Positions 4,906 to 63,705 of a DNA stretch of 64,000 bases are shown here, piece after piece. This DNA comes from Chaetoderma sp. LZ-2023a (taxonomy: Eukaryota > Mollusca > Caudofoveata > Chaetodermatida > Chaetodermatidae): assembly GCA_034401795.1 (NCBI GenBank), contig CM067367.1, positions 77,633,579 through 77,697,578 of the forward strand, written 5' to 3'. The notes under the pieces are model-generated. The model made no database searches, was not told the origin of the DNA, and saw nothing but the letters and a program-made list of their open reading frames with translations. Position numbers and translations under genes: made by a program. The stretch's first letter is position 1; every line of letters begins with the position of its first letter.

Positions 4906-5240
4906 CCAATGGACCTTTCCAGTTTTTGCTATACACAGCCCACCTCTAGCTAAGCTCCACCAACACCTCGCTCGTGTTGGGATCGATCGATCCCTGAGCG
5001 CGCTGACTATCAACTTCCAGAAAACTATGCAGATAAGCCGTTAAATATTTTGAAACTAATTTGACTGGTTGCTGCTGCTGCCTATGGCAGCAACAGCGCC
5101 CAGTCAAATTAGTTTCAAAATATTCAACATAATATTTATTAAATAGTAAAGACAAAGAATTCGTACAACAACGAACAGTCCTTACGTATGCGTTCGTGAC
5201 GTACTTATTATCGATGGATAAAGTGGAAAGGTCTATCATA
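4906..5240 (-). mobile_element. Family A palindromic MITE, near full length
   Basis: The ends are short inverted repeats (GGACCTTTCCAG at 4910-4921, its complement GGAAAGGTC at 5222-5230). The centre (about 5042-5125) is an 80-bp imperfect palindrome: TTTGAAACTAATTTGACTGG, GCTGCTGCC, a TATG turn, then the reverse complement. Outside the palindrome are the family's other marks: ATCGATCGATCCC, TAGCTAAGCTCCAC and AAAGACAAAGAATTCGTACAAC. Open frames through it on the minus strand (YFETNLTGRCCC) are copied with the DNA and are not conserved genes. Confidence 0.85.
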
Positions 5241-5540
5241 TCACAGTTAGTATTGACAACATACTATATACAGCCTTGCTATATAGTAAATGAAAACGTT
5301 TCAAACCCTTTTGCTAAATATGCAAAATATAGCAATCTGCTATTTTATAATTAATTACATCATATATCATAAAACTGCCAAAGACAATTTGTAATATGTG
5401 TAATATGTTTCGAAACGTTTTCGTTTTTAAACGCAAGTTTTGAACGCAAGGTTGGACTACCAATAAGCTAACCATATACGTATGACGTCATGTGCTTACA
5501 AGTAAAGGAGTACAAATTAAAACCGAATAGTGGGAATGCA
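5241..5540. other. AT-rich non-coding interval
   Basis: No gene or repeat boundary seen; contains several copies of ATATAGCA/TGCTATAT-like words around 5275-5340. Confidence 0.35.
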
Positions 5541-5775
5541 GAGTCGGCTTGGAGTAGTGGCTAGCACTCAGGACTATTTAACCAGAGAACCCGGTTCGCG
5601 CCTTAGCTCTGCGCTTTCTCGCCATCCTTGGAAATATGGGCAATCTCCTTGACTCCTTGCATCTCTTAGTCGGGAGTATAAAGGGGTACCAGTGCAAAAT
5701 TGGTGAATATAGCTGTAATAGTGTAATACACTTAAAATAAAACCAGCCTAGATATGGCCTGAATGGCATCAAGAA
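5541..5775 (+). repeat. tRNA-derived SINE-like element
   Basis: The head has the two internal RNA polymerase III promoter boxes at tRNA spacing: an A-box-like TAGTGGCTAGCACT (5554-5568 region) and a B-box GGTTCGCGCC (5593-5602). A tRNA-unrelated body follows to about 5775. It abuts the next family A copy. The call rests on box spacing; the cloverleaf is not intact enough to be a functional tRNA gene. Confidence 0.5.
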
Positions 5776-5781
5776 ATTCAT

Positions 5782-6182
5782 GAATCCAGGTTCTCAGTCA
5801 ATCATATGACAACATAATCAACTACATGACGTGTAGGGTGACGTCATAATCACTTACGTCATGAATACCTCGATTTAGTCCGTCTTAAATGTTTAATAGT
5901 ACGTCATGTTGTACGAATAGTATGTCTTTATTATTTAATAAGCATGCTGTTAAATATTTTGATTTACATTTGTCTGGGCGCTGCTTTGAACTAAATTTGT
6001 CTAGGCAACACCAACAGCACCAAGTCAAATTAGTTTCAAACTATTCAACAGTTTACATGTATGGTTTTCCAGAAATTGAGATTCAGAGAGTGCAGTGATC
6101 GATCGATCACAACGTGTGCAAAGCGTGTGTGAATCTTAGCTAGCGATGGGAAGGGCATGGCTAAAACTGGATTCCATCAATA
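5782..6182 (+). mobile_element. Family A palindromic MITE
   Basis: Carries CATATGAC, GGTGACGTCATAATC, the ATGTCTTTATTATTTAATAA segment, the right palindrome arm (AGTCAAATTAGTTTCAAA, 6022-6040), TCGATCGATC and the TAGCTAGCGATGGG end. The left palindrome arm is rearranged, with a duplicated CTGGGCGCTGCTTTG-like piece. Confidence 0.8.
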
Positions 6183-6356
6183 GGGAATTGACATAGCCAA
6201 ATCAAAGCAACTCAATCGTCGAATACAGGGATTGATTGGAAGCTACGTGCAGCCATATTCTGGATATTCTCTGTCCTCTTTGTATTGGCATTTGAGTCGA
6301 TTCTAACGCTTTGACGGGGAAATGTGCAGAATCTCTATCTCAAGGGCACCATACAT

Positions 6357-6672
6357 ACAATGGAGGAAGGCAATTTTAGCTATACGCCGCCCATCTCTAG
6401 CTAAGCTCCACCCAAGATCTGCTTGTGTTGGGATCAATCGATCCCTACACTCCCTGAATTTCAATTATCAGACCACTATACATGTAAGCTGTTGCTGCGA
6501 GTCAAAATTGTGCCAAAATATTGAACAGAATGTTTATTAAATAGTAACGACATACAATTCGTACAACTTGTCGGACTATTAAGCGCATGTGACTGACTAT
6601 ATCGCGTCATTCGTGACGTAATTGATTATGACGTCAGCCTAAATTGTCTGAGGAACTGGATCTTTCAACTCA
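6357..6672 (-). mobile_element. Family A MITE with the central palindrome mostly deleted
   Basis: Both flanks of the family are present (CTAGCTAAGCTCCACCCAAG, ATCAATCGATCCC; then TTTATTAAATAGTAACGAC and ATGACGTCAG), but the centre is reduced to AAGCTGTTGCTGCGAGTC. Loss of palindrome centres is the expected fate of cruciform-forming DNA. Confidence 0.75.
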
Positions 6673-7279
6673 GACAGGTTTGTTGCGGATCGTCTCCCCT
6701 TTCGTAACAGACTTACATCATTCGATTCTGACGTCAGCTATCGTATGGTGTATTTTTATTATGACGTCACGGATACTTTACTTATAGATCGGATTACTAG
6801 ATTATCCAAGGGATATATTGGGTATACATTTTATGCTACAATTTATGATTGCTGATTATATTATGAGGATGTAAAAAAAAATACACGCTAGAATGCAAAA
6901 AAGAGTAAAATAATTGTATTAAAAGTTAGAAAATAAAGACAAATCTAACGAAAAAAGAAGCTTTGGATAGAAAAGGGCCCATGCTATAGGAAAACGCGCA
7001 AGCTGGCCCAGGTGACAGAATAGACCAATATGTAGAGATTTTAAATATATAAATTTGAAATATAATATAGATAATCGAATTTCACTAAATCAGATAGCAA
7101 GCCTATTTTAATACTCGTTGAATTTACCCATGCTGGTACTGCGCCTTCGGGGAGGATCTAACATATTATTATAGGGTGGATCTACGCTGGGAGGGGTGGG
7201 GGTGTCAGTGAAGTGGTGTCCCTCCTAATGTGGTAAAATGAAAGTTGGACGCTCTATGTTTTGAAAGATAAACAACATC
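6673..7279. other. Non-coding interval with CRE-like sites
   Basis: Contains CTGACGTCAG (about 6730) and ATGACGTCACG (about 6764), resembling a diverged family A flank, then AT-rich DNA with no gene. Confidence 0.4.
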
Positions 7280-7704: not shown

Positions 7705-7800
7705 ACCAATGTCTCAGTTTTAGGACAGCTTCACGGGAACGCTGTCAAAGACAGCAACGACTCTAAGTCAAATTAGATTCAAACTATTCGACTGTAAATT
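7705..7800 (+). mobile_element. Family A remnant (palindrome only)
   Basis: GGGAACGCTGTCAAAGACAGC, then CTAAGTCAAATTAGATTCAAAC and TATTCGAC: a strongly diverged version of the family A centre and right arm. Confidence 0.5.
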
Positions 7801-9342
7801 ATCTGTGTCGTAAAGAAGCTGTTGTCTTTGGTGTGTGCTGGTTAAACGTTAATACTGGTATCCGTATGCGTGTCCGTCTTCTACACAGCAACACGTGGAA
7901 TTATCAGTTCCTTATTGTACGCGAAGAAAATACATTGTTAGAGTGGCAAGTCCAGGCAATTCTACTATCTCAGATTACTCTATTGGCTACACAAAATGTT
8001 TAATTATGTGAAAACAAACGTATTTAACTGCCAAAGAAACAAAAGAAATATGCTTATTGCAGCGATTATCAACTAGTGAACCTGAAGTTTTATCGAGCAT
8101 CCGTTAGACGCCCTGTTTGCCTTACTCAATAATTAAGAACACCCGCATGTAATAACAAAAAGTCAATGCCACCGGAATTGGACATCTTTGAGCGCTTAAT
8201 ATACTGGCATATGTTTATAATATCGCATCTCGCTTGCAGGTGTTTCATTACTTGTGGTTGATGATAATGTAAGAACACATCTATAGACCAAGAAAAGCCA
8301 ATGTGAAACAAAATTATTACGTTTCATGGCGGAATATAGTTGACTGTGCACGGTGAAATAGTTTGGGGTGAAACTATCAACGGCAATCAACACGATCTGA
8401 AAGGTAATTTCTAAATTATTATTTTTTATTTGAATTCAATTCAATTTTACTTCACGCAGACTGTGTACAAAGTATGCGGGTATGTATGTGTTCCACTCAT
8501 CCCATTCCATGTTAGTGTAGAGAAACAAGCACCTATACTAATTAATGATGTATTTGAATGTATACAATGTCATTAAAGGAAAGGATCCGAGAACTAGTAT
8601 ATGCTCTTGAATGCCAACCATATATAATACTCATAGTAACCCGCATACACCACCCCCGCCCCCACCCCGTAAGAACAGAAAGAAATCAGAACAGAAAAAA
8701 GCTGTTAGATACCATTTATGTCACTCAGGCGGGAACCAATTAGCGACGCTCTGGTGTATGCAAAGCAAATAAATAATATAGCCGGTCGTATAAGCACAGT
8801 TATATTCCCGCCAAGCCGATTAGCCACTATGTCCTACAGGTAAAATACTGTTTAGCTTTAAAACAATTTCACTGAAACCCGTTGTTTCCAGAGACGTTCC
8901 AGTACGTTCAATCACAAGAATCTAAAAATATGCAATAGGCATCATATTGCGACCTTGGAAACCAGAAGTGCATTTTTAAATCATTTTGACAGAAACTTGA
9001 TGCTTCCACCAGAAAATGTGACTTTCAAATATAACGTTTTCAAAAGGATCAATAGTCAATTAGCAATAGTAATTTTCGCTCTACATCGGCGCCTATAGAG
9101 AATACTATTCATACCGCTTACAAAACTGTATCCAGGTGTGCTTTCGTTATATTCAGGTAGGCATATGCCGTATACCTGCACGTACAGTACTTCGGAGAGC
9201 GAAGCACCAGAGAACTCGCTAATTGGCTCCAAGTTAAGTTTTTCAAGTTTATTGAGGTTCTCCCAGGTCACAATGTGACATATCGGGATTACAAAATAAT
9301 AATTAATTTTTACAGGTTTAAGTGAGATTTACCATTAAAAGA
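7801..9342. other. No gene recognised (1.5 kb)
   Basis: Read on both strands; only short frames without family resemblance. No repeat of the window's named families is obvious here. Confidence 0.4.
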
Positions 9343-12277: not shown

Positions 12278-12688
12278 TTAACCCCTCTTGTGTCACCAGC
12301 ATCTCAAAGCGCTCAAAATGCAGCCAATATTAATTAACCATTTAATGGTCAAGAAACATTATAAGAAAAGTTTCGCACTTAAATTTCCTACAACCGGGAA
12401 TTCCCAATGACCCCTACAAATGCCGTTTTTGGCGGGCCAGACGATTCATGGATTAGTAGTCAAGAAAATCGAAAATTCAGCCAGCCAGTATCCATATGTA
12501 GGCCACGAATGTCCTAGTTTTAAAATGTACAACTGGAATAACTGGCTCGGTCACCGAGCCAGTCATTACAGTGGAAAATTGTCTAAATATGACACTCTTG
12601 GCCTACAAATGGACGTTTCTCAGCATACATCATATACCTTTTGGCCAGTTTGACAATTAAACAGCTAACTTCACACAAGAGGTGTTAA
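12278..12688. mobile_element. Family B palindromic MITE, full length with terminal inverted repeats
   Basis: The ends are inverted repeats: TTAACCCCTCTTGTGT (12278-12293) and ACACAAGAGGTGTTAA (12673-12688). The middle (12531-12574) holds the family B palindrome, AACTGGAATAACTGGCTCGG followed by its near reverse complement. A second long copy lacking the palindrome is at 61190-61515. Class unknown; no transposase. Confidence 0.85.
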
Positions 12689-14467
12689 TGTCTTGTTACA
12701 AACACCGAGTGCCTGTCCTTGTGTGACATATGTTTGTTTCTGGCTGTAAAATGTACTATTATGCAGACAGCAGGATAAAGGTATATCATTTCATTAGGAG
12801 TCCTTGTTTGACAAAATATTGACTTGGCATGTGCTTATCTTCGAACACACAATGCAGGGAAAGGATTTCACATTTATATGAACTTGATCATGCCAGATAA
12901 TAACGTATATTGTTGTATACCGTTCTTATCACACAGAGAGAGCACTTTAGACATCTTACGATATACAGTATGTCTTGGTATACATTCGTGCCATTGTATC
13001 TGTCTCAAGTGAGAGCCGTTCTTGTTCATGAGCAATTAAACACATCTCTACAGCAATGTTGTATACTCCACTATATCATTTATTTTCAATCCACTAACAG
13101 TTTTAAGTTTCGCTTTATTTGCTCCAATGCATGGCCAATTCCTACGTTACAGAGAGGTGCATGGGCATTCTTTGCATAGGTTTCATAATTCATAATTAGC
13201 TAATCATTTCCCAGATATATGGTTCCTTTATTCGGAGACTAATTATTGTGTCAGATACGCATGGATATACTGGTCATACACCGGTCTGTATTCACAAGAG
13301 AATTAAGCACACAGTTTTTCAATGGATGATACCTGAAAACCCCGGCGGTTTTCCGTTATAAATGGGAGAATGACAAGTGCGAGTCATATATGCATCCACA
13401 TCACCATGCATGTTCTGAAATTCTCTTCACGAACTGCATTGGCGTGTCCTAGTGCTTCAGCTATCAAATGTGTTATACCAAACCAGCTCTTTGTCGAAGG
13501 CTTTGTGCTGCTTGGTTGAGTGAATTTGTTAATTCTGCTCCTGCTACCCAAGAAACGGGTTAAACAACACTTGGAATGTGATTAATGTAGACAGTACGGT
13601 CATGTTTACTGTAATTACTGTATACTTATTGTTGCTGATCAGTAAATATCATCTTGACAACCTGCGTCATCGATGAAAAGTTCATCAATGGAACAACAAA
13701 CACTATGGACATAGTTTCAAATTCATTGAAAACCTTCTTCCTTCTTGAATTCTGGTTCAATCGCCTTTAATTGTATCGCTCACATGTAATTGTCAATGTC
13801 CAACGTAATGATAACATTCTTGTTTGATCTAATAATATATGCATGTATGTGCTATGTGATGTGCATGTCGAGGGAACAGCAAGTCTTATAGACCATTCAT
13901 TGGTGTTACTATGAGTGTCATCATCTGCACTTCTGTCAGTATCATATTGTCATCTGAAACCAAAGAATGGTACGTTAGCAGAAGTAAATTCTTATGGTGT
14001 AGCTGAATCTGTGCCTCCATGTGTCATGGCACTAGGTGTGTTAATTGAGAGCTTCAATTGTGCATATTTCTTCATTTTGCATGTCTGCACTGCCAGTTGA
14101 GCTTCATTGACCATGGTTTAATGATCATCAGAGAGTAGCATGTGCTGATATCTCAGTGTTCTTAACATCATGCTATTTATGGAAATGGCAATATTGTCCA
14201 TAGCAAAGAATAGTTAGTCATCCTCTAACTACTGGTTTCCTCAGAGCATATGACAAGAGGCCACATTCAAGATAGGTGACAAGCAGCTGACTTGGACTGT
14301 AAGTGTGAACCCTTTGTCCTACAACTATCATGTGTTGATTATCAGTTTTAGAATGGCAGAATCAAATTTCTACAAGTTTTGGTGTATACGTCATTGTTTT
14401 GGGATTTGGCTTCATATATGATTATTTGTCCAGTGTTGGTTACTGAAGTGTCGGCAATTAAAGTGGT
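12689..14467. other. No gene recognised (1.8 kb)
   Basis: AT-rich, apparently single-copy DNA. Frames up to 89 codons are present but show no recognisable motif or splice context. Confidence 0.4.
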
Positions 14468-14868
14468 AATTGATCATTCCAATTTACCCATCAATCATAT
14501 GGCGTCATAATCAATTACCCGACTTGTATATGACGTAATAATCAATGGCGTTATGAATGACGTAGGTAAGTTAGTTAGGAACGCTTAATTGATGACGTGT
14601 TGTTGTACAAAATGTATGTCTTTAGAATTGAATAAAGATGCTGTTGAATATTTTGAAATTAATTGGACTGGGCGCGGTCGATGTGATAGGCAGCAACAGC
14701 ATCCAGGTAATTTAATCTCAAGATTGTCAACAGCTTACCTGTATAGTTTTCCGCAAAACTGATAGTCAGGCAGTTCTGGGATCGATCGATGCCAACACGA
14801 CTAAGTGGGGGTGGAGCTTGGCTAAAGATTGGTGGGGCATAGCTGAAACCGGATTACTCCATTATAGA
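14468..14868 (+). mobile_element. Family A palindromic MITE
   Basis: Has the CRE-like left flank (TATGGCGTCATAATCAATTA, TGACGTAATAATCA), TGTCTTTAGAATTGAATAA, a palindrome decayed in its right arm (14640-14735), ATCGATCGATGCC and the right flank GGTGGAGCTTGGC with GGGGCATAGCTGAAAC. Confidence 0.8.
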
Positions 14869-21984: not shown

Positions 21985-22404
21985 CATAATTCACTTTTCC
22001 AGAGTATCCATCCATCATCTGACCTCGTATGACGTCATAATCAGCTCAGCGCGTGTATCATGACGGCACGATCATTATGTCACAAAGGCTTCCATATAGA
22101 CCGTCATCAAATGACAACTACTCAGACACCGTGTATGAATTGTATGTCTTTGTAATTCTTTGCTATTTAATAAACATGCTGTTGAATATTTTGAAACTAA
22201 TTTCACGGGTCGCTGTTGCTGCCTTAGGCAGCAACAGCACCCAGTCACATTAGTTTCAAAATATTCAACAGTTTACTTGTGTAGTTTTTTGGAAATTGAT
22301 AGTCAGGGTGTACAGAGATCGATTGATCCCAACACGAGCGAGGTGTGGGTGGAGCTTAGCTAGAGATGGGCGGGGCATAGCTACAACCGGAACGGTTCAT
22401 TGCA
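21985..22404 (+). mobile_element. Family A palindromic MITE, full length
   Basis: One of the best copies. Left end CACTTTTCCAG, CRE-bearing flank (CGTATGACGTCATAATCAGC), TTGTATGTCTTTG, palindrome 22180-22270 (TTGAATATTTTGAAACTAAT, GCTGTTGCTGCC, TTAG, GGCAGCAACAGC, ATTAGTTTCAAAATATTCAA), GATCGATTGATCCC, then GGAGCTTAGCTAGAG and GGGGCATAGCTAC. Confidence 0.9.
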
Positions 22405-22796
22405 TGTTCATTGCATGTGAGTGTCTCCTGTGTTTTCCGATCCTTGCCCATCCATTGTTTGCAAGCCCATATTAGCATTGTGTCATTCATTAAAATATCT
22501 CCGCTACATGGGAGATCCCGATAGGTACGCACTACGCAGGCTGTGGCGGTGTGGAGATAATCACCATACAGAACCACCACCTGGACCACCCGGCCTAACC
22601 CTGTACGATAATATGATAAAATGTATGTTCTTTCATTAGACCCAACATTGAAGTACACATTTGCAGCCAGTAAAAGTATACACTTACATTTTTTCAAGCA
22701 TGCTGGTGTGAATGTGCACTTTTAAAATGTTTTAATGAATGCCTAATGAATGTTATGCAATGAGATATAAGCTTGGCCGTGTAATGGCGCTTTCAA
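22405..22796. other. Interval with a TTAA-type transposon end
   Basis: 22698-22725 (GCATGCTGGTGTGAATG, GTGCAC, TTTTAA) matches the terminal repeat of the TTAA-flanked element at 62871-63484, so a fragment of a related element ends at 22725. Its other end was not found. No gene. Confidence 0.45.
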
Positions 22797-23118
22797 TTTT
22801 ATCCACCTATCATATGACGTCATAATCAACTATGTTACGTGTAAGTTGACGTCATAACCAATTACAGCATGATAGTACCTGTAGTATTCCGACACAATGC
22901 ACGAATTGTATGTCGTTGTTATTTAATAAACATGCCTATGGCGGCAACAGCGCCCAAATTGGTTTCAAAATATTCAACAGCTTACCTGTATGATTTTCTG
23001 GAAATTGATAGTCCGAGCGTTTGGCGATCGATTGAACCCAACACGGCCGAAGCGTTGGTGGAGCTTAACTAGGGATGGGCGGGCATAAATAAAGCAAGAA
23101 AAGTCCATTTATGGTGTT
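22797..23118 (+). mobile_element. Family A MITE with the left palindrome arm deleted
   Basis: Left flank has two CREs (ATATGACGTCATAATCAAC, GTTGACGTCATAACC). TTTAATAAACATGCC runs straight into TATGGCGGCAACAGCGCCC, so the left arm is missing precisely to the centre. The right flank ends GGGATGGGCGGGCATA. Confidence 0.85.
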
Positions 23119-24650: not shown

Positions 24651-24741
24651 CTGAAAGAAAAAAGCAAAGAAGTTATTAATTCACTAATTTACTAGGCAAC
24701 TCTTTGAACCTGAAAGTCCAAAATACGAGATATTATTTACG

Positions 24742-24890
24742 ATTTAATAAATCTTCTGTTGAATATTCTAAATCTAATTTGACTGGGAGCTGTACTGCAT
24801 TTGGCCGCAACAGGTTCCAGTGAAATTAGTTTCAAAATATGTAACAGGTTATATGTGTGATTGACTCGAGATTGAGATTCTGAGCATATA
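24742..24890 (+). mobile_element. Family A variant inside Harbinger A
   Basis: GTTGAATATTCTAAATCTAA, TTTGACTGGGAGCTG, a poorly paired centre, CAACAGGTTCCAG and GAAATTAGTTTCAAAATATG. This belongs to the GGGAGCTG subfamily also seen at 30631, 41340, 43205 and 63609. Confidence 0.65.
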
Positions 24891-26500: not shown

Positions 26501-26883
<383 letters not shown>

Positions 26884-27028: not shown

Positions 27029-27065
27029 TCGTCTCGTCTCGTCTCGTCTCGTCTCGTCACGTCTC

Positions 27066-27160
<95 letters not shown>

Positions 27161-29726: not shown

Positions 29727-30191
29727 TCATCTGGTAGACATGCACGATTACGTGATTAAATCGAAAATCGAGATTATTTTTTAAATCGTGACTTTATATG
29801 ATTAAAAATTATATAACCGAATCGTGGTGAATAATTTCTACTGCATAAAATATTTCAAATCCTACGTTTTAATTACTTTTAATGCGATCGGTGACGAACT
29901 GGACATTTGCGGGTCAAGAGAAGATTATTTTTGAAAAAGTATCACTGGAATTACTGGCTCCCGAATTGAGCCAGCCATTCCGGTGATGCATTTTCAAAAG
30001 TAGTCTTCTCTCGGCATGCAAATGGACTTTTCTAAACACCGGTGCCGTTTTCGTCAATGATATGCTTTTGTTGTTATGTCTGAGTTATTTATACCCAAGC
30101 TGATTAATCGAGTAATGACGATTATTATTTTTATTATTAAATAATCGATCGTGAACAATCAAAGCAATAATCGCACACACCTACCATCTGG
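29727..30191. mobile_element. hAT-like MITE with 8-bp target duplication
   Basis: The element 29735-30183 begins TAGACATGCACGATTA and ends with the complement of TAGGTGTGTGCGATTA. It is flanked by TCATCTGG (29727-29734) and CCATCTGG (30184-30191), seven of eight identical, the duplication length of hAT elements. The interior has many GATTA/AATCG words. A family B palindrome sits inside it. Confidence 0.7.
29900..30033. mobile_element. Family B palindrome nested in the hAT-like element
   Basis: GGACATTTGCGGGTCAAGAG, then ATCACTGGAATTACTGGCTC (29941-29960) pairing with GAGCCAGCCATTCCGGTGAT (29968-29987), then CTTCTCTCGGCATGCAAATG. It is younger than its hAT-like host. Confidence 0.75.
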
Positions 30192-30589
30192 TGGTTAGTG
30201 TTCTAGATGATTTCATGTGGATGGTCTGGACCGAAGTAACTCACTCTCTCACTTCATTTCCCGACACTACTGTAGTTCATGTCGCTCCAGGAATCCACGT
30301 TGCTCTCTATGGCAGTGACTAAATGGTATTCCAATATTCGACAAAATACTGACTTCATACAATTTACAGCGTATATATGTCAATAGCAAACTTGGGCACG
30401 GACGTGAGTCGTTGACTAACCATCAGGCATGACCCCATGGGATAGGCAAATTGGATACAGGCAGCATCACATTGGCATTGCCATAGAGAATAGCAGTTCA
30501 AGGAAGCAATACTTTCGAACTAAACACTACCCACCTCACCCCCATTACGTATTCAGCTCTTTCATAGAAAAGCGTAATCCGTTCAAACT
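30192..30589. other. No feature recognised
   Basis: Non-coding interval; nothing recognised on either strand. Confidence 0.4.
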
Positions 30590-30760
30590 GAATATTTAGA
30601 ATCTCAACTGCAAAGTGACTATACAAGTAAGCTGCCGAATATTTTGAAAAAGTAATTTAACTGAAAGCTGTTGCTGCCTATGACAGCAACAGCTCCCAGT
30701 CAAATTAATTTCAAAATAATCAGCATAATAGTTATCACACTGTAAATAAATGTTAGCATT
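30590..30760 (-). mobile_element. Family A copy, GGAGCTG subfamily
   Basis: AATATTTTGAAAAAGTAATT, GAAAGCTGTTGCTGCC, TATG, ACAGCAACAGCTCCC, AGTCAAATTAATTTC: palindrome 30633-30722. Flanks truncated. Confidence 0.75.
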
Positions 30761-31201
30761 TGCCCTTTCTGATATAAATGGGTAACACTAAGTATTGAAT
30801 AACGCGTTCAACCCTGTCTATAACAGTATATAATTATCTAGTGTTTAAGGATCGTGTAGTGCGTTCTAAATTTGCCCCTGCGTGCAAGAGTAGACAATAG
30901 GAAACACTTCCGTTCTTTAGCTGTTCCGGAAGAGCATCTCGCTGCTCCCGGACAGTCTTTATTCACATCGTGATCCGGGGTTCTTTCTAGTGTCGTTCAC
31001 ATCGTCTTCTCCGTGTCGGAGTGTGGCAGATATAGAGGAGACATAGTGTTTGCGCTTTATCCAGAGACATGTTCGAGAGATAAAGGATAGAGGCTATAGC
31101 ATTTCAGTACTAACATCAAAGAAAGTAAGAAATGCAGAATTTGCAAGTAGAAAATTATTTCCATCGCATCATCTGTAGGCACATCTATCAATCCTTCGAC
31201 A

Positions 31202-31202
<1 letters not shown>
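30761..31202. other. Non-coding interval with a short hairpin
   Basis: TGTTCCGGAAGAGCA and TGCTCCCGGACAG (about 30921-30956) form an imperfect stem. It could be a degraded LTR fragment (TGTAGTGCG at about 30856), but evidence is thin. Confidence 0.3.
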
Positions 31203-31281
<79 letters not shown>

Positions 31282-31310
31282 TGAGTGCGTGCGTGCGTGG
31301 TGCGTGCGTG
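31203..31310. repeat. (TGCG)n tetranucleotide array
   Basis: About 26 TGCG units with two TGAG variants. Gives an RACVRACV frame that is not a gene. Confidence 0.95.
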
Positions 31311-31494
31311 AGTGTATGGGTGCATGTGTTTATCCGCTAATATGGCGGCCCTCTCCATGGCGGTTCCATGCGGTCATAAGCTGGAGAGGGCACATCTCAT
31401 AAGACCGGTGGGGCCAGGGAAAACAGGAGATAAATACAAATTCTCCAAAATGGAAGTCCATTGCAAGACAGTCTTGCTCTCTCACTTCTTGGAA

Positions 31495-31870
31495 AAAGTT
31501 ATGAATTTCTGGCTATGCCCCGTCAATTTAAAGCTAAGATCCGCCCACTTTGGACGACCGATGTAATCGATTTGAACATCTCAATTTGAATTCCAGTAAT
31601 CTAAATTTCTAGATAACTATAAAAGTAAACCAGTTGACTATTTTGAAACTAATTGGAGAAGGGGGCTGTTTTTCTGCCTATGGCAGAAATAGCTTCACGT
31701 CAAAATGTTTTCAAAATATTCAACAGAATGTTTATTGATTTCTAAATTCACTGACATACAGTTCGGACATTTTCTTCACGGACTATTACCATCTTCGTGA
31801 GAGACCAACATCATTTTGATTGTGACATCAGCTACCCGAGTAACAGATCGGCTTCCTCCATTGACATTGG
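31495..31870 (-). mobile_element. Family A copy, diverged subfamily
   Basis: TGGCTATGCCCCGTC end, then palindrome 31640-31730 (TTTTGAAACTAATTGGAG, GGGGGCTGTTTTTCTGCC, TATG, GGCAGAAATAGC, TTTTCAAAATATTCAACA) and a GACATACAGTTCGGAC flank with TTGATTGTGACATCAGC. Confidence 0.7.
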
Positions 31871-32034
31871 AGATCTAGGTTTAATAAAAACATCGGATTC
31901 AAAGAGCCACCATCTGGCAATTATGCTTATCGTAATCCACCAGATAATTTGAATAAGTACAGGGACTGCACTCAGACCGGATTGAGCAACCGCATTTATA
32001 GGTAACACGCAATACGCCAGAGAAATCACACAGT

Positions 32035-32225
32035 CAAAAAGTTTCAAAATATTCAACAACTTGCATGGTATAGATACCATGATATTGAGATTCTAGGAAT
32101 CAAGGATTCAAAGTATACAATTTGATTCTAGGATAGGGCCTACGTAATAGGTGGGTGGAGCTTAGTTAGAGGGGGTAGGTGGGGGGGGGGTGGACATAGC
32201 TAGAGGTGGGGGCTTTCTTTTGGAG
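32035..32225 (+). mobile_element. Family A right-half copy
   Basis: TTTCAAAATATTCAACAACTT, ATTGAGATTCTAGG, then GGTGGGTGGAGCTTAGTTAG. The left half is absent. A G10 run (32181-32190) lies in its right flank. Confidence 0.6.
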
Positions 32226-32269: not shown

Positions 32270-32545
32270 TAGTGATAACCGAGCCCGTCATTCCAGTGGT
32301 TAATTCTAAAAAATAAATTTCTGTTTGTCTGCAAATGAAAATTTTCTGAAAGAAAATTGGAAATTTAAATGACCAAATTTAGTCATTAAATGGTTAACAT
32401 TTCGGCTTAATGGATATCCAGATATTTACAGGCCACGAGAATCGTTTTGAAAAATTGTCTACTGGAATGACTGACTCGCTTACCGAGCCAGTCAGTAATG
32501 ATAAAAGTTCAAATACGGCGTTGTCTTGGCTTCAAAATGGTCATA
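32270..32545. mobile_element. Two partial family B copies
   Basis: 32277-32310 holds a half palindrome (CGAGCCCGTCATTCCAGTGG). 32457-32503 holds a fuller one, CTACTGGAATGACTGACTCG pairing with CGAGCCAGTCAGTAATG. Associated words CAGGCCACGAGAATC and TCTTGGCTTCAAAATGG are also in the 12278 copy. Confidence 0.65.
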
Positions 32546-32682: not shown

Positions 32683-33158
32683 GCCTCTTGTGTCAACTTA
32701 ACTCTGTAATGGCTAAGTTGGTATAGTGACCTCTGCAGTGATCTTTAGAAATGTCCATTTGCGGGGTAAGAAAAAAATATTTTTTTAATTTACCACTGGA
32801 ATGACTGGCTCGGTATCGAGCCAGCCATTCCAGTGGTAAATTTAAAAAAGTCTTCTCTTGGTCTGCAAATGGACATTCTTAACGACCACCATCAAATATT
32901 GGTGTGGGCCGTCTCTTCTTGGTCTGCAAGTGGACAATGGCTAAGCAGAAATGTACTTGCCCATTACACTTTTGACGAATGTCCATTAAGTTTGAAGGAT
33001 AACAGAAATCAATGTTTGGGTAATTTTCGTTATAAATTGACATAATACTCTTTTTGACTGCTAAAATCAAAATTTCCCTGAAAAGTATTGACAATTAAAT
33101 CGTTAGTTGAAATAATAGGTTTTTTGAGCGCTGTAATGCGCTGTTGACACAACAACTC
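32683..33158. mobile_element. Family B element with the best-preserved palindrome
   Basis: A CCTCTTGTGTCAACTTAAC end (about 32686) and an inverted TTGACACAA (about 33142) are weak termini. The centre 32752-32878 is a 127-bp palindrome: AATGTCCATTTGC outer arms, AATTTACCACTGGAATGACT inner arms (32787 on) with only a 4-base turn (32813-32816) and one mismatch over the inner 26 bp. Confidence 0.75.
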
Positions 33159-34079: not shown

Positions 34080-34200
34080 TAAGTAAACAATATACTCTAA
34101 TTTGGCGGTGAGTTGTCGCTGCCATAGGCACTAACAGCACCCAATCAAATTAGTTTCAAAACATTCAATAGCTTACTTTGATTTTAAATTTAGATTCTAC
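34080..34200 (+). mobile_element. Family A copy, palindrome and right edge
   Basis: TCTAATTTGGCGGTGAG, TTGTCGCTGCC, ATAGG, CACTAACAGCACCC, AATCAAATTAGTTTC. Confidence 0.6.
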
Positions 34201-34313
34201 AAATTCAGCTTTCAAAGTTCCAAACCGGTTCCATTGAGCGGAAAAAAGTTGGAGGTTCTAAGCCCGTCCAACGCTTTACACTCAATACAATTAAATAGAA
34301 TTGAAGGTAAAAT

Positions 34314-34328: not shown

Positions 34329-34744
34329 TCGTTCTATTTTTGCCCAAATTATGACGGCTTTGTGATGATCATTTGTGGTAAATAATCAGAATCCTTTTCC
34401 ATCTCTAAATCTATTTCCTTTATCATTCAGCGATTCTCTTTCCATGGCGACAATATTTTTTGACCAGGGTGCTGATAGTTTTGAACAAAGTTGGCGTTAA
34501 ATTATTAATATCTTTTCAAACTAGTTCGACATTTGTGTTGTTATTAAATCGGACATAATTTTGAATTTGAGTTAGTATTTTTTAAATATGTTGCAGATGG
34601 TTAAAGAATATGTCATGTGAATTTATTAACAAAAGTCATTGAGTATAATTTAAGAATTCTACCATTCCAGCTTAGAATTGCGACAAATCCAGCGTCTCTA
34701 ACCCTGACCCTTTGAACTCTGAATTCTCAGAATCTCAATTTCAG
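34329..34744. other. No feature recognised
   Basis: AT-rich non-coding interval. Confidence 0.4.
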
Positions 34745-35040
34745 GGTAATTATACATCTACCTATACAAATCTGGCTGGAACTTGTCGCTGCTATAGGTA
34801 AACAACTAGACAGTATAAGCTGATCAATATTTTGAAACGAATTTGAATTGGCGGCTGCTGTTGCCTATGGCACAAACAGTCCCGGTCAAATAAAGTTCAC
34901 AATATTCAACAGAATATTTATTACATTGTAAACGAATTTTCGAATTCGTTGCCGAAAGTGGGTCCATTTTAATCCTTTAAGCCATGCATAATATTCTGTT
35001 AAATATTCTGAACCTAGTTTTACTGGGAGCTATGGCTATC
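34745..35040 (-). mobile_element. Two overlapping family A relics
   Basis: First, palindrome at 34828-34915 (ATATTTTGAAACGAATTTG, GCGGCTGCTGTTGCC, TATGGC, ACAAACAGTCCC, AATATTCAACAG). Second, 34988-35037 has only a left arm (TGTTAAATATTCTGAACC, TTTTACTGGGAGC). Confidence 0.6.
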
Positions 35041-35314: not shown

Positions 35315-35420
35315 ATGTCCATTTGCGCCCCCAAAGACGAGTATTTTCTGAAAGTTTACCACTGGAATGACTGGATCGGTAATCGAGCCAGTTAGTCAAG
35401 TCTATTGGTCTTAAAAAGTT
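35315..35420. mobile_element. Family B partial copy
   Basis: AATGTCCATTTGCGCCCCC, then TACCACTGGAATGACTGG and TCGAGCCAGTTAGTC. The right outer arm is lost. Confidence 0.7.
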
Positions 35421-40529: not shown

Positions 40530-40835
40530 TTTTCAAAAATAATCTATGCTAAGCTTCACCCACACTTCGCCCGTTTTTTTGATCGATCGATCCCCGTGCT
40601 CCTTGACTGTCGATTTCCAGAAACCCATACAGATAAACAGTCAAATTAGTTTCAAATTATTCAACAGAATATTTATTAAATAGTAAATACATACAATTCG
40701 TACCACAACGCTTAGTCTGCCATCAATTAAAAGTTCGTGTCGAACCCACCGACATCATGAATTACGCATATTGATTATGATGTCATCCTACACGTCACGT
40801 AGTAGATGGAGGGATAAACCGGACTCATGTATTAT
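40530..40835 (-). mobile_element. Family A MITE with one palindrome arm deleted
   Basis: GCTAAGCTTCACCCACAC, ATCGATCGATCCCC, CAGATAAACAGTCAAATTAG (junction where the arm is missing), TTATTAAATAGTAAATAC, ATACAATTCGTACC and CCTACACGTCACGTAG. Confidence 0.8.
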
Positions 40836-42838: not shown

Positions 42839-43194
42839 GTAGCACAAAATGTCGAGTTTACTGACACACAGGACAAAGATTTCTATGCGGAAATCTTCAT
42901 TTATAGCAAGATATTCTAGAAAGATAATTAAATGGGTTGTTAATGCCCCATGTATATCACACATATATTGTATCTTTATGCTATTTTTAACATTACGCGA
43001 ACGCGAATCGTACAAGCAATCGAACACGAATCACTGTCCGACTCAATAGAAAGCACCATTTAGCGGTTCTCGGCACACATTTTGCCAACACTGTTGTACT
43101 GCATGTGTGAGAAAACCCGGTTCGTACGTATTGCACACATTCAATGCTATAATGTCCTTAACAAATTGAACTGGATGCGAAGACCCGTAGCCAA
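42839..43194. other. No feature recognised
   Basis: Non-coding interval. Confidence 0.35.
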
Positions 43195-43335
43195 TTTAAT
43201 GAATATTGTGTTGAATATCTTTTTAACTAAATTGACTTGGAAGTATTGCTACCTATGGCGGTAACAGGTTCTTGTCAAATTAGTTAAACACGTCATGTTA
43301 AATTCGTTTAAAATATTAAACAACTTACCTATACT
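43195..43335 (+). mobile_element. Family A copy, GGTTC subfamily
   Basis: TTGTGTTGAATATCTTTTTAA, TTGACTTGGAAG, TATTGCTACC, TATGGCGGTAACAGGTTC, TTGTCAAATTAGTT. Close to 24742-24890 in its centre. Confidence 0.65.
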
Positions 43336-43447
43336 TACCCATGCGGGTACAGTGTCTATACTTACATAGGCGGGTACATTGTAACTGGGATTCTGGGAAA
43401 ATCCACGTTCTAAAATGTCATTTGACTTCGTTTTGGTTGGGTGAAAT

Positions 43448-43850
43448 TCACCTTTCCAGAATATCTATCATCATATGACGTCATAATCAACTACGTGATG
43501 TGTAGAATGACATCATAATGAATGACGCCATGAATGACGTCGGTAAGTACGTTACGAAAGCATATTTGAAGACGGGCTATGCGTTGTTGTACAAATTGTT
43601 TGTCTTGACTATTTAATACATATTCTGTTGAATATTTTGAAACTGATTGGACTGGGCGCTGTTGTTGCCATAGGCAGAAACATCACCCAGTCAAATTAGT
43701 TACAAAATATTCAACAGCTTCCCTGTATAATTTTCAGGAAATTGATAGCTAGGGAATTCGGGGTTCGATCAATCCCAACACGGCGAGGTGTGGGTGGAGC
43801 TTAGCTAGTGATTGGCGTGGCATAGCTAAAATGGAAAGGTCCATTGAGAT
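43448..43850 (+). mobile_element. Family A palindromic MITE, full length
   Basis: Left end CACCTTTCCAGAATATC, right end ATGGAAAGGTCCATTG (43833-43848). CREs at about 43478, palindrome 43627-43712 (TGTTGAATATTTTGAAAC, GGGCGCTGTTGTTGCC, ATAG, GCAGAAACATCACCC, CAAAATATTCAACA), then AGGTGTGGGTGGAGC. With 4906-5240 and 21985-22404 it best defines the family. Confidence 0.9.
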
Positions 43851-46349: not shown

Positions 46350-46469
46350 CGATATGCTACTCGTCTCTCCACAATAGAATAATAAATACGTGTGGTGCAA
46401 TGATGAATGAATTATGTACACCTTTTCACACGTTTCGGAATCGATTTGCTACTTTGAAACATGGATTCC

Positions 46470-46790
46470 CATACCCTAAATTTCAATGAAATTATAGAGG
46501 TGAGTTGCTGAAGATTTGAAAAGTAATGACTGTGGGTTGTGCCATCTTTGGAAGCACCATCTCCCAGTCTAATTAGTTTCAGAATATATAACAAAATATT
46601 TTTCAATTGTGAATTCACTAAAGACATATATTTCGCACAATTTTGAGACGAACCTTTCGATTCTACTGGTAGTTAGGAGCAACGTTATTCTGATCGTGAT
46701 CTTCACTAATTGATTATGACATTATATTTATTTGAGTGACAGCTTGGATCCCTCACTAATCTTTCGACATTGACAGAATTTACTTAGAAA
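46470..46790 (-). mobile_element. Family A copy, diverged subfamily
   Basis: AGATTTGAAAAGTAATGACTG, weak centre GTGCCATCTTTGGAAGCACC, CCCAGTCTAATTAGTTTCAG, AAGACATATATTTCGCAC, then TTGATTATGACATTATA and GAGTGACAGCTTGGATCC. Shares its right flank with 31740-31860 and 49050-49120. Confidence 0.6.
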
Positions 46791-47315
46791 TATCAAAACA
46801 AATATGCCGATAAGATACAGCGAGCGAAAATCACAGACCACATATGCCTACAAAAAGCTGTTTCATCTGGATCAATCAGCGTGTCTAGAGTACATAAGTG
46901 CATGCATAGATCTCACATTGACTATATCCTCGATATTCATCAAAGGGAATAGCATCTCTGCAGCACAGCGCTAATGGATGTATCGGAACTCGCCCTTGTT
47001 CAAAGCCTGCAGCAGCTCTCGTTCAATTTAGTTTCACATATTCACCAGAGTGTGTGCTGAATGGATAAATCCAGTCTTAGCTATGCCCGACCTATCTGTA
47101 GCTTCCGTCACTCTTTGGATCTCATTTTTCCAGAAAACTATACAGGCTAGCTGTAGAATCGAAATCTCGACCTTTAAATTCAAATCTTAGACCAGCCAAT
47201 CACGAGCAATTTTACATATATGTAAATTTATGCTAGCCAATCGGATTTCTATGTCACGCTAGGGTACGTGTATACTTGTTTACGTTTCTGCTATACGTCT
47301 GTACGTTTGAAACAA

Positions 47316-48220: not shown

Positions 48221-48375
48221 TGGGCTTTCGTAATTAAGCCGACTAAATCGCGTCATCATGTCGTAATTGATTATGCCGTCATCCTACACCTCACGTAGTT
48301 GATTATTACGTCACATGCTGGATGAACAAACTGGAAAGTTCCATTGTAAGTTCTCTTACTTACTTATCCTCTTCG

Positions 48376-56339: not shown

Positions 56340-56822
56340 CTAATAATTGCTCGCTATCACATACTTCCTGCAAACGACGGTGAGACGTATCAGAGTAAGT
56401 CGATAACGACAGCCTGCCTTCTCCGAATTTAAAACACAATTAAAATCACCACCAGCAATACAGTTTTCTAACCTATCATGACTTAGTTGTGCAATGTGTG
56501 ACAAAAATGTAGTCAATCCAGGTATTTCAACAGACACCACCACCCATCTGCCATTACTATCAGCTTCCGTTGAAAGGGCATTTAATAGACTCAAACAACT
56601 GGCTAGAACTAAGATTGCCACGCCAGTATTTAAATCGGTGGTATTATAATAAAAGAGTTCACCCGTAGAAAGCTGTTTGAGATGTTCTACTACTACAATA
56701 TTATAGATCTTTGTTTCCTGTAGCATGACAATGTCAGCATTCAGCTCGAATAATTTCTCTAGCAGAACGCCCTGCTTTACTCCATCGTTCAAACCGCAGC
56801 AATTAAGTGAGCAAATTTGCAT
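56340..56822 (-). pseudogene. LINE endonuclease (APE-type) domain
   Basis: Starts MQICSLNCCGLNDGVKQGVL and has ADIVMLQETK (catalytic Glu in LQET) at residues 30-38, RWVVVSVEIPG in the middle and the GGDFNCVLN catalytic Asp/Asn motif near residue 125, then ends at a stop at 56340. It is the Mg-dependent nickase that starts target-primed integration. The C-terminal SDHxP part is missing from this frame. Confidence 0.8.
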
Positions 56823-57971: not shown

Positions 57972-58223
57972 GACCAGGAGTATAATCGGACCACGGTATT
58001 ACGGGGTACAAATTCGTATCACGTGGTAAAAATTGTACTTGATTACTCACGCTTCAAGCGAGAGTAAAAGTGTGCGCATACGTAAATAGGCAAGCAACTA
58101 CATGATACTTCCGGCCGAAGTACTGCGACAACCGCAAAATTTTGACAATCTTCCTTTTTGCATTAATTACATCATTTAATATAGCAAACGAGAAAAGCCG
58201 ATTTTGTACGCGCAGATCGCTCT

Positions 58224-58497
58224 GCGCCCATGTTCCAGAAGCTCTCGTTATGTTAGCGATATCGTTACACCATACTAAAGCAATGGGTGTAACGATATCG
58301 CTAGCGAACGATAGCTTCGGGAACATGGGCCCAGTGGCTAGCTAGTAGCGTCGTACTCGCCGTGCGTTCCGTAGAGACAACATTCCAGGGCCCATGTTCC
58401 CGAAGCTATCGTTCGCTAGCGATATCGTTACACCCATTGATTAAGTATGGTGTAACGATATCGCTAACATAACGAGAGCTTCTGGAACATGGGCGCA
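58224..58497. repeat. Inverted duplication whose arms are themselves hairpins
   Basis: The arm at 58224-58332 (109 bp) returns in reverse complement at 58389-58497, differing only around the central ACTAAAG/ACTTAATC, with a 56-bp spacer. Each arm is an imperfect hairpin: GCCCATGTTCCAGAAGCT ... CGATATCGTTACACC, turn, GGTGTAACGATATCG ... AGCTTCGGGAACATGGGC. The shared HVPEALVMLAISLHHT frames merely reflect the duplicated DNA. Confidence 0.95.
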
Positions 58498-58856
58498 GGT
58501 AAGCGGAGAGGTCTGAATAGAAGGCCAATCCTGCCAAGTACAAATGCGCGTATTAATAACAAAACAGTGGGATAAAACAACCAGATAAAGTGACAGAAAA
58601 AGGCACCACACTAGCCGTATGCCAATAAATATCAATGGCATGCAGCTCACTGCTTGCGCCCCGGTTTTCGAAATTGAAAGCTAGGCACAAAATACAATAA
58701 AGCACAGGAAACTACACCAAAATACAAAACGCCTAACTCAACCAAATTCGCTTATGAAGAGAACAAAACAAAAATAAGTGAAAATGAGCAGTAGTGGCGA
58801 AAATAGTCATCAGAATTAGCAAATCCAAATTCAGTACATCTGCCAATGACTACTAA
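58498..58856. other. No feature recognised
   Basis: Non-coding interval. Confidence 0.35.
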
Positions 58857-60140: not shown

Positions 60141-60609
60141 GCAAAATTATTATGGGACGATATAAACTCGACCGTCTCTGGCACAATAACTTTGGCAAGA
60201 AGAATGTCAATCGAGCTTTAGAATAGCGTTTTCTGATTTCCTTGGTTGAAAGCAGCCACGGATGAAGTTTTTACCACTCCGTTCCACAAAAGCGGTACCG
60301 TGTGAATCAACGAACTGGAATCGGTTTTTTGCACGTGCATCCATTAACAAAGATGATTACATATGACATTTTGTCTCAACAGCTGCTAGTTTTTTCTGAT
60401 AGAAGGTTAAGTTATATCAATGTCTCCTGTATCTATCCGTACTAAGATAAAATATAATACATTACTGAGACCAGAGAAATGAAAAGGCCACGATCTATTA
60501 AACCCCACCCTAATGCATACCAGATTTCAACATCACCTTGACAGACATACACGCACTTGCCCACATGCACACACACACACACAATAGCGCTGCGTGAATC
60601 CAGTTTTCG
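60141..60609. other. No gene recognised
   Basis: Short (AC)n at 60569-60581; otherwise nothing recognised. Confidence 0.35.
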
Positions 60610-61010
60610 CTATTCCCCGCGTATGCACATTCCTAACCAAGCTCTGCCCACGTTTTGTCTGAGATGGGATCAATCTAACACTAAGCTCCCTGAATCGCAA
60701 TTTGTTAGAAAAATATACAGGGAAGCTGTTGCATGTTTCGAAAATAATTGGACTGGGTGCTGTTGCTGCCTATGGCAGCAACGTGGGCAGCATGCAGCAA
60801 CAGCGCTCAGTTCAATTATTATTTAAATATTCAACAGCATGTTTATTAAATAGTAAAGACATACAATTTGTACAACGTGGCGGAATCTTAATCGTTTATG
60901 ACGGACCCAATTACTTGGTTTATGACGTAATTGATTATGCCGTCAGTCTACATGTGACCTCGTTGATTATGATGTCATAAAATTGATTGATAGACTGGAT
61001 TCATTTATTA
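60610..61010 (-). mobile_element. Family A palindromic MITE, full length
   Basis: Has GGATTCATTTA-like outer end, TATGACGTAATTGATTATG, TTTATTAAATAGTAAAGAC, and a palindrome (60735-60838) whose centre has an extra GTGGGCAGCATGCAGCAAC duplicate of the turn region, a replication-slippage scar typical of hairpin DNA. Confidence 0.85.
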
Positions 61011-61059
61011 ACCAAGGCAATCACGTCTACCCCCACAAGATCGCCTGTGGTTAGAACCA

Positions 61060-61515: not shown

Positions 61516-61529
61516 CGTTAAATTGTATT

Positions 61530-61700
61530 CTTTTGATAGGCAGCAACAGGTCCCATACAAATTAGTTTCAAAATATTCCTTGTATAGTTACCTTCAAGTT
61601 TATATTCTGGGAATCCAAAGCTTCAAATAACTTCAACACATGTAAAACGAGGGCGGAGCTTTGCTGGAAATTTGCGCGGCATATCTGGAAACGAATCCTC
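61530..61700 (+). mobile_element. Family A right-half copy
   Basis: GATAGGCAGCAACAGGTCCC, CAAATTAGTTTCAAAATATTC, then GGCGGAGCTTTGCTGG and GCGCGGCATATC. Confidence 0.6.
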
Positions 61701-62334
61701 CTGTTATGTGATAGTACGGAGCCGCCACGGTTAGAAGCCACGGGGCCGCGCCCACATCACTCCGCCAGCGCCACCCTAACTCCCGCGATCGTAATCATAT
61801 AGACTACACGTACGTACGTACGTGCGTACATATACTTCCGCACTTTCTTGTTTTATGTATGAGTATCTAAGGTATATAGAATATACATGTATAAAGACGG
61901 TTGCTTCTGTAACACGTCTATGACAAAAACAGGATAACTAGTATTGCGTTTGATTATGTTCTTCATCATTGAAGAATACATACGCTGACATTTCGTCTTA
62001 ATCAATCATTAATCACATATACAGTCGCCAATCGAACTCGCATCATACTACGTGTGGAAATTTCCGAGGTACCGTTAGACATTTCCGATAGGGTCCCGGA
62101 GAAGCGATCTCGTGGCATTTCATCGGACGATGTTTGCGTCGTAAGTTCATTTACGACAGACATTCCAACAGATGTCTTATGTAAGGAAGCGCGCAGAAAC
62201 ACGTTCATTATGGAATAGAACGAGTGCGGTGTTTAGGGTGGTTTAAGAGTGCGTGCATTTTTGTATAAAGTGTAATTAAGAATTTATACCATATAGACAA
62301 CATAGCACAGATTATGTATGATGCATGGGAGACT
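61701..62334. other. Non-coding interval with an unrecognised minus-strand frame
   Basis: 62002-62208 on the minus strand (MNVFLRASLHKTSVGMSVVN, SSDEMPRDRFSGTLSEM) has protein-like composition but no recognised domain or splice context. ACGTACGTACGTACG near 61808 is a small microsatellite. Confidence 0.3.
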
Positions 62335-62400
62335 GTGTTGAATATTTTGATAATAATTTGACTGGAACATGGCGTAGTTTCAACATATTCAATCAACAGC
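62335..62400 (+). mobile_element. Family A relic
   Basis: TGTGTTGAATATTTTGATAA, TTTGACTGGAACATGG, TAGTTTCAACATATTCAA: both arms' edges, centre lost. Confidence 0.5.
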
Positions 62401-62870
62401 ATTCCAGTGTACATGTATTGGAATTAAGCTACTCGATCCTTGAGAGTTGACTCGTTCATTAGACATATATTTCTAACGGGTTGTGTTAGAGATAGAGAGA
62501 ATTAAGACACATTTTAACGATTTCAAATATTTTAAATCGGATTTCGGATTGTATGCCGCTGATGATGTGCAATATACACTGTATTTAGTTATTATTATCA
62601 GCGGTATTCTGAAAACAGTTTTACTGGATATCATTGCTGTCTTTGAAGACATTTCGGCAAACGTCTTTGTAGTCGTTAAAGGAGTTTGACAGACATTTGT
62701 TGTGTACTTGAAAATGTTTGTTTGAAAGTCATTGTTGTATGATCAAATATTTAGATCACAATACCATTTTCCCATTACTGAGCGAGGGCAATTATGCATT
62801 GTAAGCGGGGATATACATGACGTCTTATCTAACCACAGTGTGATTGATACCCCTAGTATATTAATATTCT
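62401..62870. other. No gene recognised
   Basis: Non-coding interval; a 68-codon plus-strand frame shows no family resemblance. Confidence 0.35.
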
Positions 62871-63484
62871 TTAAAGGTGCATATTCACACGAAAATGTTT
62901 GAAAACAAAATTGTTGAAATTATATACTTTTTATTTGCCCTGTAGGTGGGGCTTCGAATACACCTTCCGTATCCTCTGCGTGTCGTAAGAGGCGACTAAA
63001 GGAGGTAAGGGTGCGGTAACCCTGACATAAACCTCGAGTGCTGGAGACGGAAGCTCCACGCCGCACGGCGCACTCTAATAAACCATGGATCCACGCACTT
63101 AACGCTTATGATCATGGCGATAGTCACTTACAGGACTGGCGGTATGATCAGCGACCGAAAAAAAATATGTATATATATATATATATACTTTTAGAGGCTT
63201 ACATTGTGTACCTCAATGTAATGAAACGAAATACATCTTTACATATAATGATTTCATTCCATATAAATACATTTTGTAGGTTTACTTGTGAATTTGAATT
63301 AGTGACTCGTGGCTCTAATTCAACTTGACAACTTAAAAGTTTACATTAATGTATACATAATGAAATCATCATATGCTAAGATTTATTTCGTTCCATTACA
63401 TCTAGGCACACATTTGAAGTTTCTAGAGTATGTAATCTTAACAATTTTACTTTGAACCATTCTGCTGTGAATATGCACCTTTAA
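62871..63484. mobile_element. TTAA-flanked inverted-repeat element, about 606 bp
   Basis: TTAA at 62871-62874 and 63481-63484 flank ends AGGTGCATATTCACA and its complement TGTGAATATGCACCT. Similarity of the two ends continues inward for about 60 bp (AAAATTGTT, TATACT/CATACT). TTAA duplications are used by piggyBac and Kolobok; which one is not resolved. The interior has TGCGTGTCGTAAGAGGCGAC (62978-62997) and a short (TA)n. A related end is at 22698-22725. Confidence 0.65.
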
Positions 63485-63608
63485 ATATATCCATCGCATA
63501 CGATTTCTCGTCGGTTTCCTCCGACATATCGCCGACAAGTGACTCTATATGATTGGCATGTCGTATTGGCAAATTCGCTTGCCTTATGAGACGACATTTT
63601 CTGACCAC

Positions 63609-63705
63609 GATATTTTGAAAGTTAATTTGACTGGGAGATGTTGCTGACATAAGCAGCAACAGCTCCCAGATAAATTTGTTTCAAAATATTCAACATAATA
63701 TTCCT
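63609..63705. mobile_element. Family A copy, GGGAGATG subfamily, palindrome only
   Basis: GATATTTTGAAAGTTAATTT, GACTGGGAGATGTTGCTG, ACATAAG, CAGCAACAGCTCCCAG, TTTGTTTCAAAATATTCAAC. Lies about 170 bp upstream of the candidate host exon. Confidence 0.75.

Follow-up and report, generated by a model that had tools for sequence, protein, structure and literature searches.

Why does a short transposable element carry its strongest inverted repeat in its middle? The question is raised by a repeat, here called family A, in a 64,000-nucleotide stretch of the genome of the mollusc Chaetoderma sp. LZ-2023a (Caudofoveata; assembly GCA_034401795.1, contig CM067367.1, positions 77,633,579 to 77,697,578 of the forward strand; this whole stretch is referred to as the window). 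We propose that a miniature inverted-repeat transposable element (MITE) of ISL2EU type probably acquired a second, B2-like MITE of TTAA type as its middle and was amplified as a composite, and that the strongest inverted repeat would lie in the middle of A because this middle is the body of the second MITE. Two different transposition systems thus seem to have dispersed one and the same palindrome.

Family A is a non-coding element of ~400 bp with weakly conserved ends of ~14 bp, AATGGACCTTTCCA/TGGAAAGGTCCATT, which are of the GGACCTTTCCAG type, a left flank carrying TGACGTCA motifs and, in the centre, a palindrome whose arms measure 46 bp. A profile seeded with the four best copies of the initial annotation and then iterated detects 32 segments in the window at E<1e-3 (weakest 18.1 bits; reversed window ≤2.5 bits, 20 dinucleotide shuffles ≤5.0 bits), and broader profiles detect 36 A-profile segments (weakest 12.3 bits) and one segment matching only the B elements described below, A and B segments together covering 6,940 of the 64,000 bp (10.8%; Table 1). 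The repeat that had been described as about 25 copies of one design is therefore real, but A flanks or ends are present in only 15 segments and three weak ones (12-19 bits), the remaining segments matching the core only in the profile search. The flank-bearing copies do align outside the palindrome, ten of them being 82-90% identical to their own consensus, and further elements of the initial description were recovered: the palindrome itself, detected independently in three copies (arms 43-46 bp, spacer 1-3 bp), the loss of exactly one arm (visible at 6643-6360, 40833-40548 and 22783-23108) and the motif-rich flank, TGACGTCA occurring 18 times in the window vs 1.0 expected, with 10 of the 18 occurrences inside A-profile segments. 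The copy at 60610-61010, by contrast, had been listed among the best and proved atypical, with outer ends of another sequence (ATGAATCCAG / CTGGATT) and a turn that carries 19 bp of inserted sequence.

The general A consensus rests on 40 sequences, i.e. a core-only window copy used as query and 39 other genome places among the matches listed, all taken with their flanks; ten of the 40, the window copy included, match the core only, and most of the 40 are A. It reads AATGGACCTTTCCAATTTATC, a left flank with two TGACGTCATAATCA units, TTTACTATTTAATAAACATT, the palindrome, CTTACTTGTATAGTTTTCTGGAAATTGAGATTCAGGGAGTTCAGGGATCGATCGATCCC, GTGGGTGGAGCTTAGCTAG and AAAACTGGAAAGGTCCATT, and its ends (AATGGACC...GGTCCATT) start with GG, several end columns being less than 60% conserved. 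A young subfamily is represented by the window copy at 21986-22403 and 39 other genome copies at 90-93% identity among the matches listed; these 39 lie ~3.9% from their own consensus, in which the 46-bp palindrome arms differ by one mismatch, but as the set consists of the best matches to one window copy, divergence within A as a whole is greater. The left end of the young subfamily is AATTCACC, starting with TC and not GG, so that AATGGACC, initially proposed as the left end of the family, holds for the general consensus and not for the young copies.

A 29-base word from the palindrome arm has 58,347 exact copies in the 2.44-Gb genome (reversed word: 0), one of which lies in the window, where 1.5 per 64 kb are expected from the genome count. 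If the window was typical, there would be in the order of a million segments genome-wide; this is an extrapolation, and in 12 other genome stretches, fetched for another purpose, the repeat occupies 1,271 of 25,000 bp (5.1%), i.e. it is half as dense.

The transposition system of A is indicated by its target. In 40 young copies the element is preceded by A, A and T in 37, 37 and 38 cases, with a pyrimidine in front of these in 31, and followed by A, T and T in 37, 37 and 39 cases, with a purine behind them in 35; no longer target duplication was detectable in these copies (2,601 offset/length tests, best z 3.2). AAT and ATT are both present in 38 of the 44 full-length copies. When the joined flanks of these 44 were compared with the window and the fetched loci, an unoccupied paralogue spanning the junction was found for eight. 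Seven such matches were inspected, and five independent sites read AATT (L019, L024, L047, L038 and L051/L052, the last two being copies of one event and counted once), while L020 is unclear. Two of the insertions went into the core of another copy (L019, L038) and one into another copy's left flank (L047), which is possible because A itself contains AATT. The net change on insertion is the element plus AT. These data show that A inserts at YAATTR with duplication of AT, which is the published ISL2EU signature A/AT/T (PHIS superfamily), and the target duplication, for which the initial annotation had pointed to empty sites, could be read from them. Being short, with terminal inverted repeats, a defined target and many copies, family A is a MITE, as initially proposed for an element whose short ends match and whose centre is palindromic, except that its middle is best read as another MITE.

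According to the excerpted account in PMC4482050, ISL2EU elements have the target A/AT/T, usually start with GG and are reported from animals only. A shares with them the AT duplication inside AATT and the GG start of its general consensus, and the YqaJ and DDE_Tnp_4 domains are present in this genome; it differs in being non-coding and ~400 bp long, and in the TC start of the young subfamily on the left. Spy transposons, as far as the excerpts from PMC11304231 and PMC4482050 describe them, resemble A in their palindromic A/T-rich target and in lacking a long duplication, but their target is AAATTT without duplication, whereas YAATTR and the GG-type ends of A fit ISL2EU better. A Spy-type element without duplication was rejected on two grounds: the third base from the centre of the target is a pyrimidine in 31 of 40 copies and A in only five, and the empty sites read AATT.

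The core of A is not confined to A. The core inside a repeat with YqaJ and DDE_Tnp_4 domains, used as query, gave 40 primary matches listed, of which 14 at 92-100% identity were regarded as further copies of the repeat itself and left out, while the other 26, at 76-80%, define a 192-bp element, B1 (TTAA-CCCTTTCACCGA ... TCGGTGAAAGGG-TTAA), with TTAA intact at both ends in 20 of 26 (L147 and L155 share flanks). A second element of 211 bp, B2 (TTAA-CCCTTTGAACCC ... GGGTTCAAAGGG-TTAA), was derived from 20 fetched sequences out of 39 search matches and from L101 (L169 and L170 share flanks); of these 21, 9 keep an intact left TTAA, 12 an intact right one and 5 both. The palindrome of B2 has the same layout as that of A, and positions 152-313 of A and 40-201 of B2 agree at 143 of 162 positions. 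Judged by their TTAA sites and terminal motifs (CCCTTTCACCGA, CCCTTTGAACCC), B1 and B2 are piggyBac/TTAA-type MITEs: the CC[C/T]T terminal motif and the terminal inverted repeat of 12-19 bp, named as hallmarks of piggyBac MITEs in the excerpted text of PMC2872659, are found at their ends. The initial view that the palindrome belongs to one element thus largely falls, the same core occurring in B1 and B2 under unrelated TTAA/CCCTTT ends. That the short window copies are merely decayed A was likewise rejected, on the B-like end motifs among them and on TTAA-type B1 and B2 having the same core.

The three families allow the arms of the palindrome to be compared. In the 39 young A copies each arm lies ~3% from consensus (3.0-3.3%) vs 3.9% for the whole element, and complementary double changes are at chance level (2 vs 0.6; counted by cells, 3 vs 1.7 on average and at most 5 in shuffles), which led us to reject ongoing arm-to-arm conversion in young resident copies. 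Across 150 copies of all groups there are 107 complementary double-change cells, compared with 52.7 on average and at most 68 in 200 shuffles, and in the 111 copies outside the main young set there are 100 vs a shuffle maximum of 82. Moreover, both arms differ together between the family consensuses, with GGGCGC/GCACCC in A vs GGAAGC/GCTTCC in B2 and B1, and CTAAT/ATTAG in A and B2 vs TTAAT/ATTAA in B1. These excesses have to be read with restraint: within B2 alone or B1 alone double changes do not exceed shuffles, the shuffles ignore the relatedness of copies, and a separate count of 77 vs 31 double changes includes copies from duplicated repeats. An excess across families with none within B1 or B2 suggests that arm matching is restored or kept between families and not in resident copies, i.e. 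arms decay independently after insertion and changed together between families, either because source copies were under selection or because the hairpin templated its own correction. Joint change is expected in either case, the selection acting on transposition.

These patterns bear on the idea that the palindrome is kept for a function, e.g. as a hairpin RNA or as a cruciform that promotes transposition or evades silencing; this concerns upkeep and is compatible with a nested origin. The hairpin is strong (palindrome 22179-22271 folded as single-stranded DNA: -40.7 kcal/mol, z -14.4), the arms have changed together between families and the exact arm word is present 58,347 times, yet inserted young copies are little constrained, as their arm divergence shows, the Rfam search gave no match at gathering score, and templated correction would produce the same pattern; we regard such a function as unlikely, if the best placed of the alternatives. 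Slightly less likely still is the stronger version, in which the palindrome acts in cis as a portable module, making elements more mobile or shielding copies from silencing; it would have served two or more unrelated DDE transposase systems one after the other (first piggyBac-type, later ISL2EU-type), its symmetry being kept by selection on source copies. If this was true, the palindrome would be a mobile element of mobile elements.

How A and B2 came to share a core is suggested by the right junction of A. We checked 14 A copies, most of them picked for low profile score (10 of 39 genome copies and four from the window), and found TTCAAA directly after the core in six (L108, L130 and the window copies at 31832, 46754, 32016 and 61532). 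Aligned to the terminal 15 bp of B2, 13 A right junctions (L099, with no alignable tail, being omitted) reach a score of 150, which is reached by 0 of 400 shuffled B2 ends (mean 104.7, maximum 146). A junction word predicted from this, in which one position was left open to either purine and one to either pyrimidine, has exactly three occurrences genome-wide, all of them with the purine of B2, and its reversal has none. As traces of the right end of B2 persist in some diverged A copies and the left end is absent, the simplest course would be that a B2-like TTAA-type MITE, itself palindromic, inserted into an ISL2EU-type MITE, that its left ~38 bp were lost and its right end eroded, and that the composite was amplified with the ends of A. 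On sequence identity and this relic we consider the nested origin likely, A being a non-autonomous cut-and-paste element most likely moved by an ISL2EU-type DDE transposase.

Several observations weigh against this account. The left 38 bp of B2 are not detected in A above shuffles; the right end of B2 matches the general A consensus no better than 741 of 1000 shuffles, its relic being confined to diverged A copies; and no core-free form of A was seen among 40 scored of 712 candidates. As the target reads the same on both strands, the AT duplication is formally indistinguishable from an element T...A inserted without duplication. Finally, among three YqaJ/DDE families (X, Y and Z), compared by two copies each, the pair of A ends is present in none of the six stretches, and the sole family with recognisable inverted ends, Y (C5/C9), has RTATACACRCGT, unlike A.

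Two observations would suit the reverse direction, in which the palindrome arose in A or a third element and was captured by TTAA-type ends, giving B1 and B2: the left 38 bp of B2 are absent from A, and the exact right-end word of B2 is far rarer in the genome than that of A (134 vs 4,110). However, diverged A copies hold more of the B2 right end than the young subfamily, and capture would require a ready-made piggyBac-like end inside A, so that we find this direction improbable, and a shade more so than the portable module.

An autonomous ISL2EU partner would carry a THAP-DDE transposase and a YqaJ gene and share its ends with A. The genome contains matches to YqaJ (67), DDE_Tnp_4 (at least 150) and piggyBac DDE (119) domains, and the autonomous element with matching ends that the initial annotation envisaged was not found among the few candidate families examined; the boundaries of X and Z show no recognisable inverted ends. 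Family Y is a 4.8-kb YqaJ/DDE element whose two copies (L078/L079, from C5 and C9) are 97.8% identical and have the termini RTATACACRCGT. The YqaJ/DDE_Tnp_4 repeat that supplied the B1 query (L065, L071-L075, L090, L091; 14 matches at 92-100% identity to the part with B1) contains both a B1-type element and a left half of A. These lie at similar positions in several of its copies, so that both insertions seem older than the amplification of the repeat. The repeat was rejected as autonomous partner, L090 and L091 being homologous beyond the A piece, which is thus a nested copy; a nearly complete A copy adjoining YqaJ (L051-L053) was read as an insertion.

Internal deletion of an autonomous element is a common origin of MITEs. 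That A is a plain derivative of this kind, its arms being subterminal inverted repeats of its partner joined by deletion of the middle, would agree with A left halves that stop at or near the palindrome centre inside YqaJ/DDE repeats (L063, L077, L065-L066, L071-L075), but is very improbable, since in L090/L091 the repeat continues beyond the A piece, which is thus not the repeat end, and core and shoulders are common to the TTAA elements.

Nested elements, interiors shared under different ends and non-autonomous ISL2EU and piggyBac elements are all known kinds. The nearest precedent, as portrayed in the excerpts from PMC2872659, is the coral CMITEs, piggyBac-type families with TTAA sites and CCCTTT-type ends, in which one conserved interior lies under different ends and one new element (CMITE-IN) was created by MITE insertion. 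The likeness is one of description; CMITEs are ~100 bp long, whereas here a long palindrome forms the interior, which is also found inside a MITE that has ISL2EU-type ends and duplicates AT. Among the open-licence PubMed Central papers listed by our searches, none was on this element and none showed one palindromic interior under the ends of two superfamilies. The present case thus documents, in sequence, a palindromic MITE body under the ends of two transposase superfamilies, very abundant in a 2.4-Gb genome. The coral CMITE study (PMC2872659) left open if the interior of a MITE contributes to its transposition. This becomes testable here, since one interior is common to three families with two sets of ends, and since young residents decay neutrally while families keep their arms matched.

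Table 1. Copies of the repeat and their palindromes in the window
Feature	Position	Strand	Basis
Full-length A copy	43444..43846	+	A profile 5-401, 376.5 bits
Central palindrome of 43444..43846	43625..43717		arms 43625-43669 / 43673-43717; inverted repeat 84% complementary
Full-length A copy, young subfamily	21986..22403	+	398.6 bits
Central palindrome of 21986..22403	22179..22271		arms 22179-22224 / 22226-22271; inverted-repeat search
A copy, internal deletion in left flank	4907..5244	-	profile and alignment
Palindrome of 4907..5244	5040..5128		inverted-repeat search
Full-length A copy, alternative ends AATTCATGAATCCAG	5774..6176	+	336.3 bits
A copy without centre and most of right arm	6358..6642	-	238.1 bits and alignment
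Full-length A copy	14466..14864	+	330.5 bits
A copy without left palindrome arm	22781..23110	+	253.8 bits and alignment
Diverged A copy	31504..31837	-	165.8 bits; TTCAAA relic at right junction
Right half of diverged A copy	32023..32220	+	59.5 bits; TTCAAAG relic
A copy without right arm and centre	40548..40834	-	123.6 + 59.7 bits; alignment
Diverged A copy	46424..46754	-	102.5 bits; TTCAAAG relic
A right-end fragment	47059..47159	-	30.8 bits
A left-end fragment (AATGGAACTTTCCAG)	48222..48347	-	79.4 bits
A copy, other ends and insertion in turn	60594..61011	-	331.5 bits; alignment
Right half of diverged A copy	61536..61702	+	88.0 bits; TTCAAA relic
Core-only copy, possibly TTAA-type (B), left GCAACTCTTTGAAC	24696..24887	+	A core 110.6, B 88.4 bits
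Core-only copy, query of core genome search	30574..30783	-	A core 127.7, B 97.3 bits
Core-only copy, B-like right end GTTCAAAGGGTCAG	34704..34939	-	profile and end motif
Core-only copy, B-like right end GTTCGAGGGGTTAA	41322..41487	+	profile and end motif
Core-only copy	63610..63749	-	A core 76.8, B 66.2 bits
Core-only copy	34097..34232	+	70.8 bits
Core-only copy	43192..43333	+	45.2 bits
Core-only copy	62311..62432	+	B 37.6 bits
Core-only copy, B score above A	7706..7855	-	B 41.1, A 30.6 bits

No tRNA was found in the window, and a Pfam scan of four long open reading frames in it gave one match and nothing else: the frame at 56340-56822 (minus strand) matches the endonuclease/exonuclease/phosphatase domain barely above the cut-off and is probably a fragment of a long interspersed nuclear element. 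A second palindromic repeat family lies at 32738-32889 (arms 32780-32812/32817-32849, 94% complementary), with relatives near 12518-12617, 29915-30030, 32424-32544 and 35307-35401 and in the flanks of five A copies (L024, L027, L034, L040, L041). The inverted repeat at 58222-58498 (111 bp, 98% complementary, spacer 55 bp) may be a fold-back or hairpin element. Long tetranucleotide microsatellite arrays are located at 320-607, 26504-26881, 27061-27160 and 31202-31314, and a tandem repeat with a 56-bp unit in 7.8 copies spans 981-1419.

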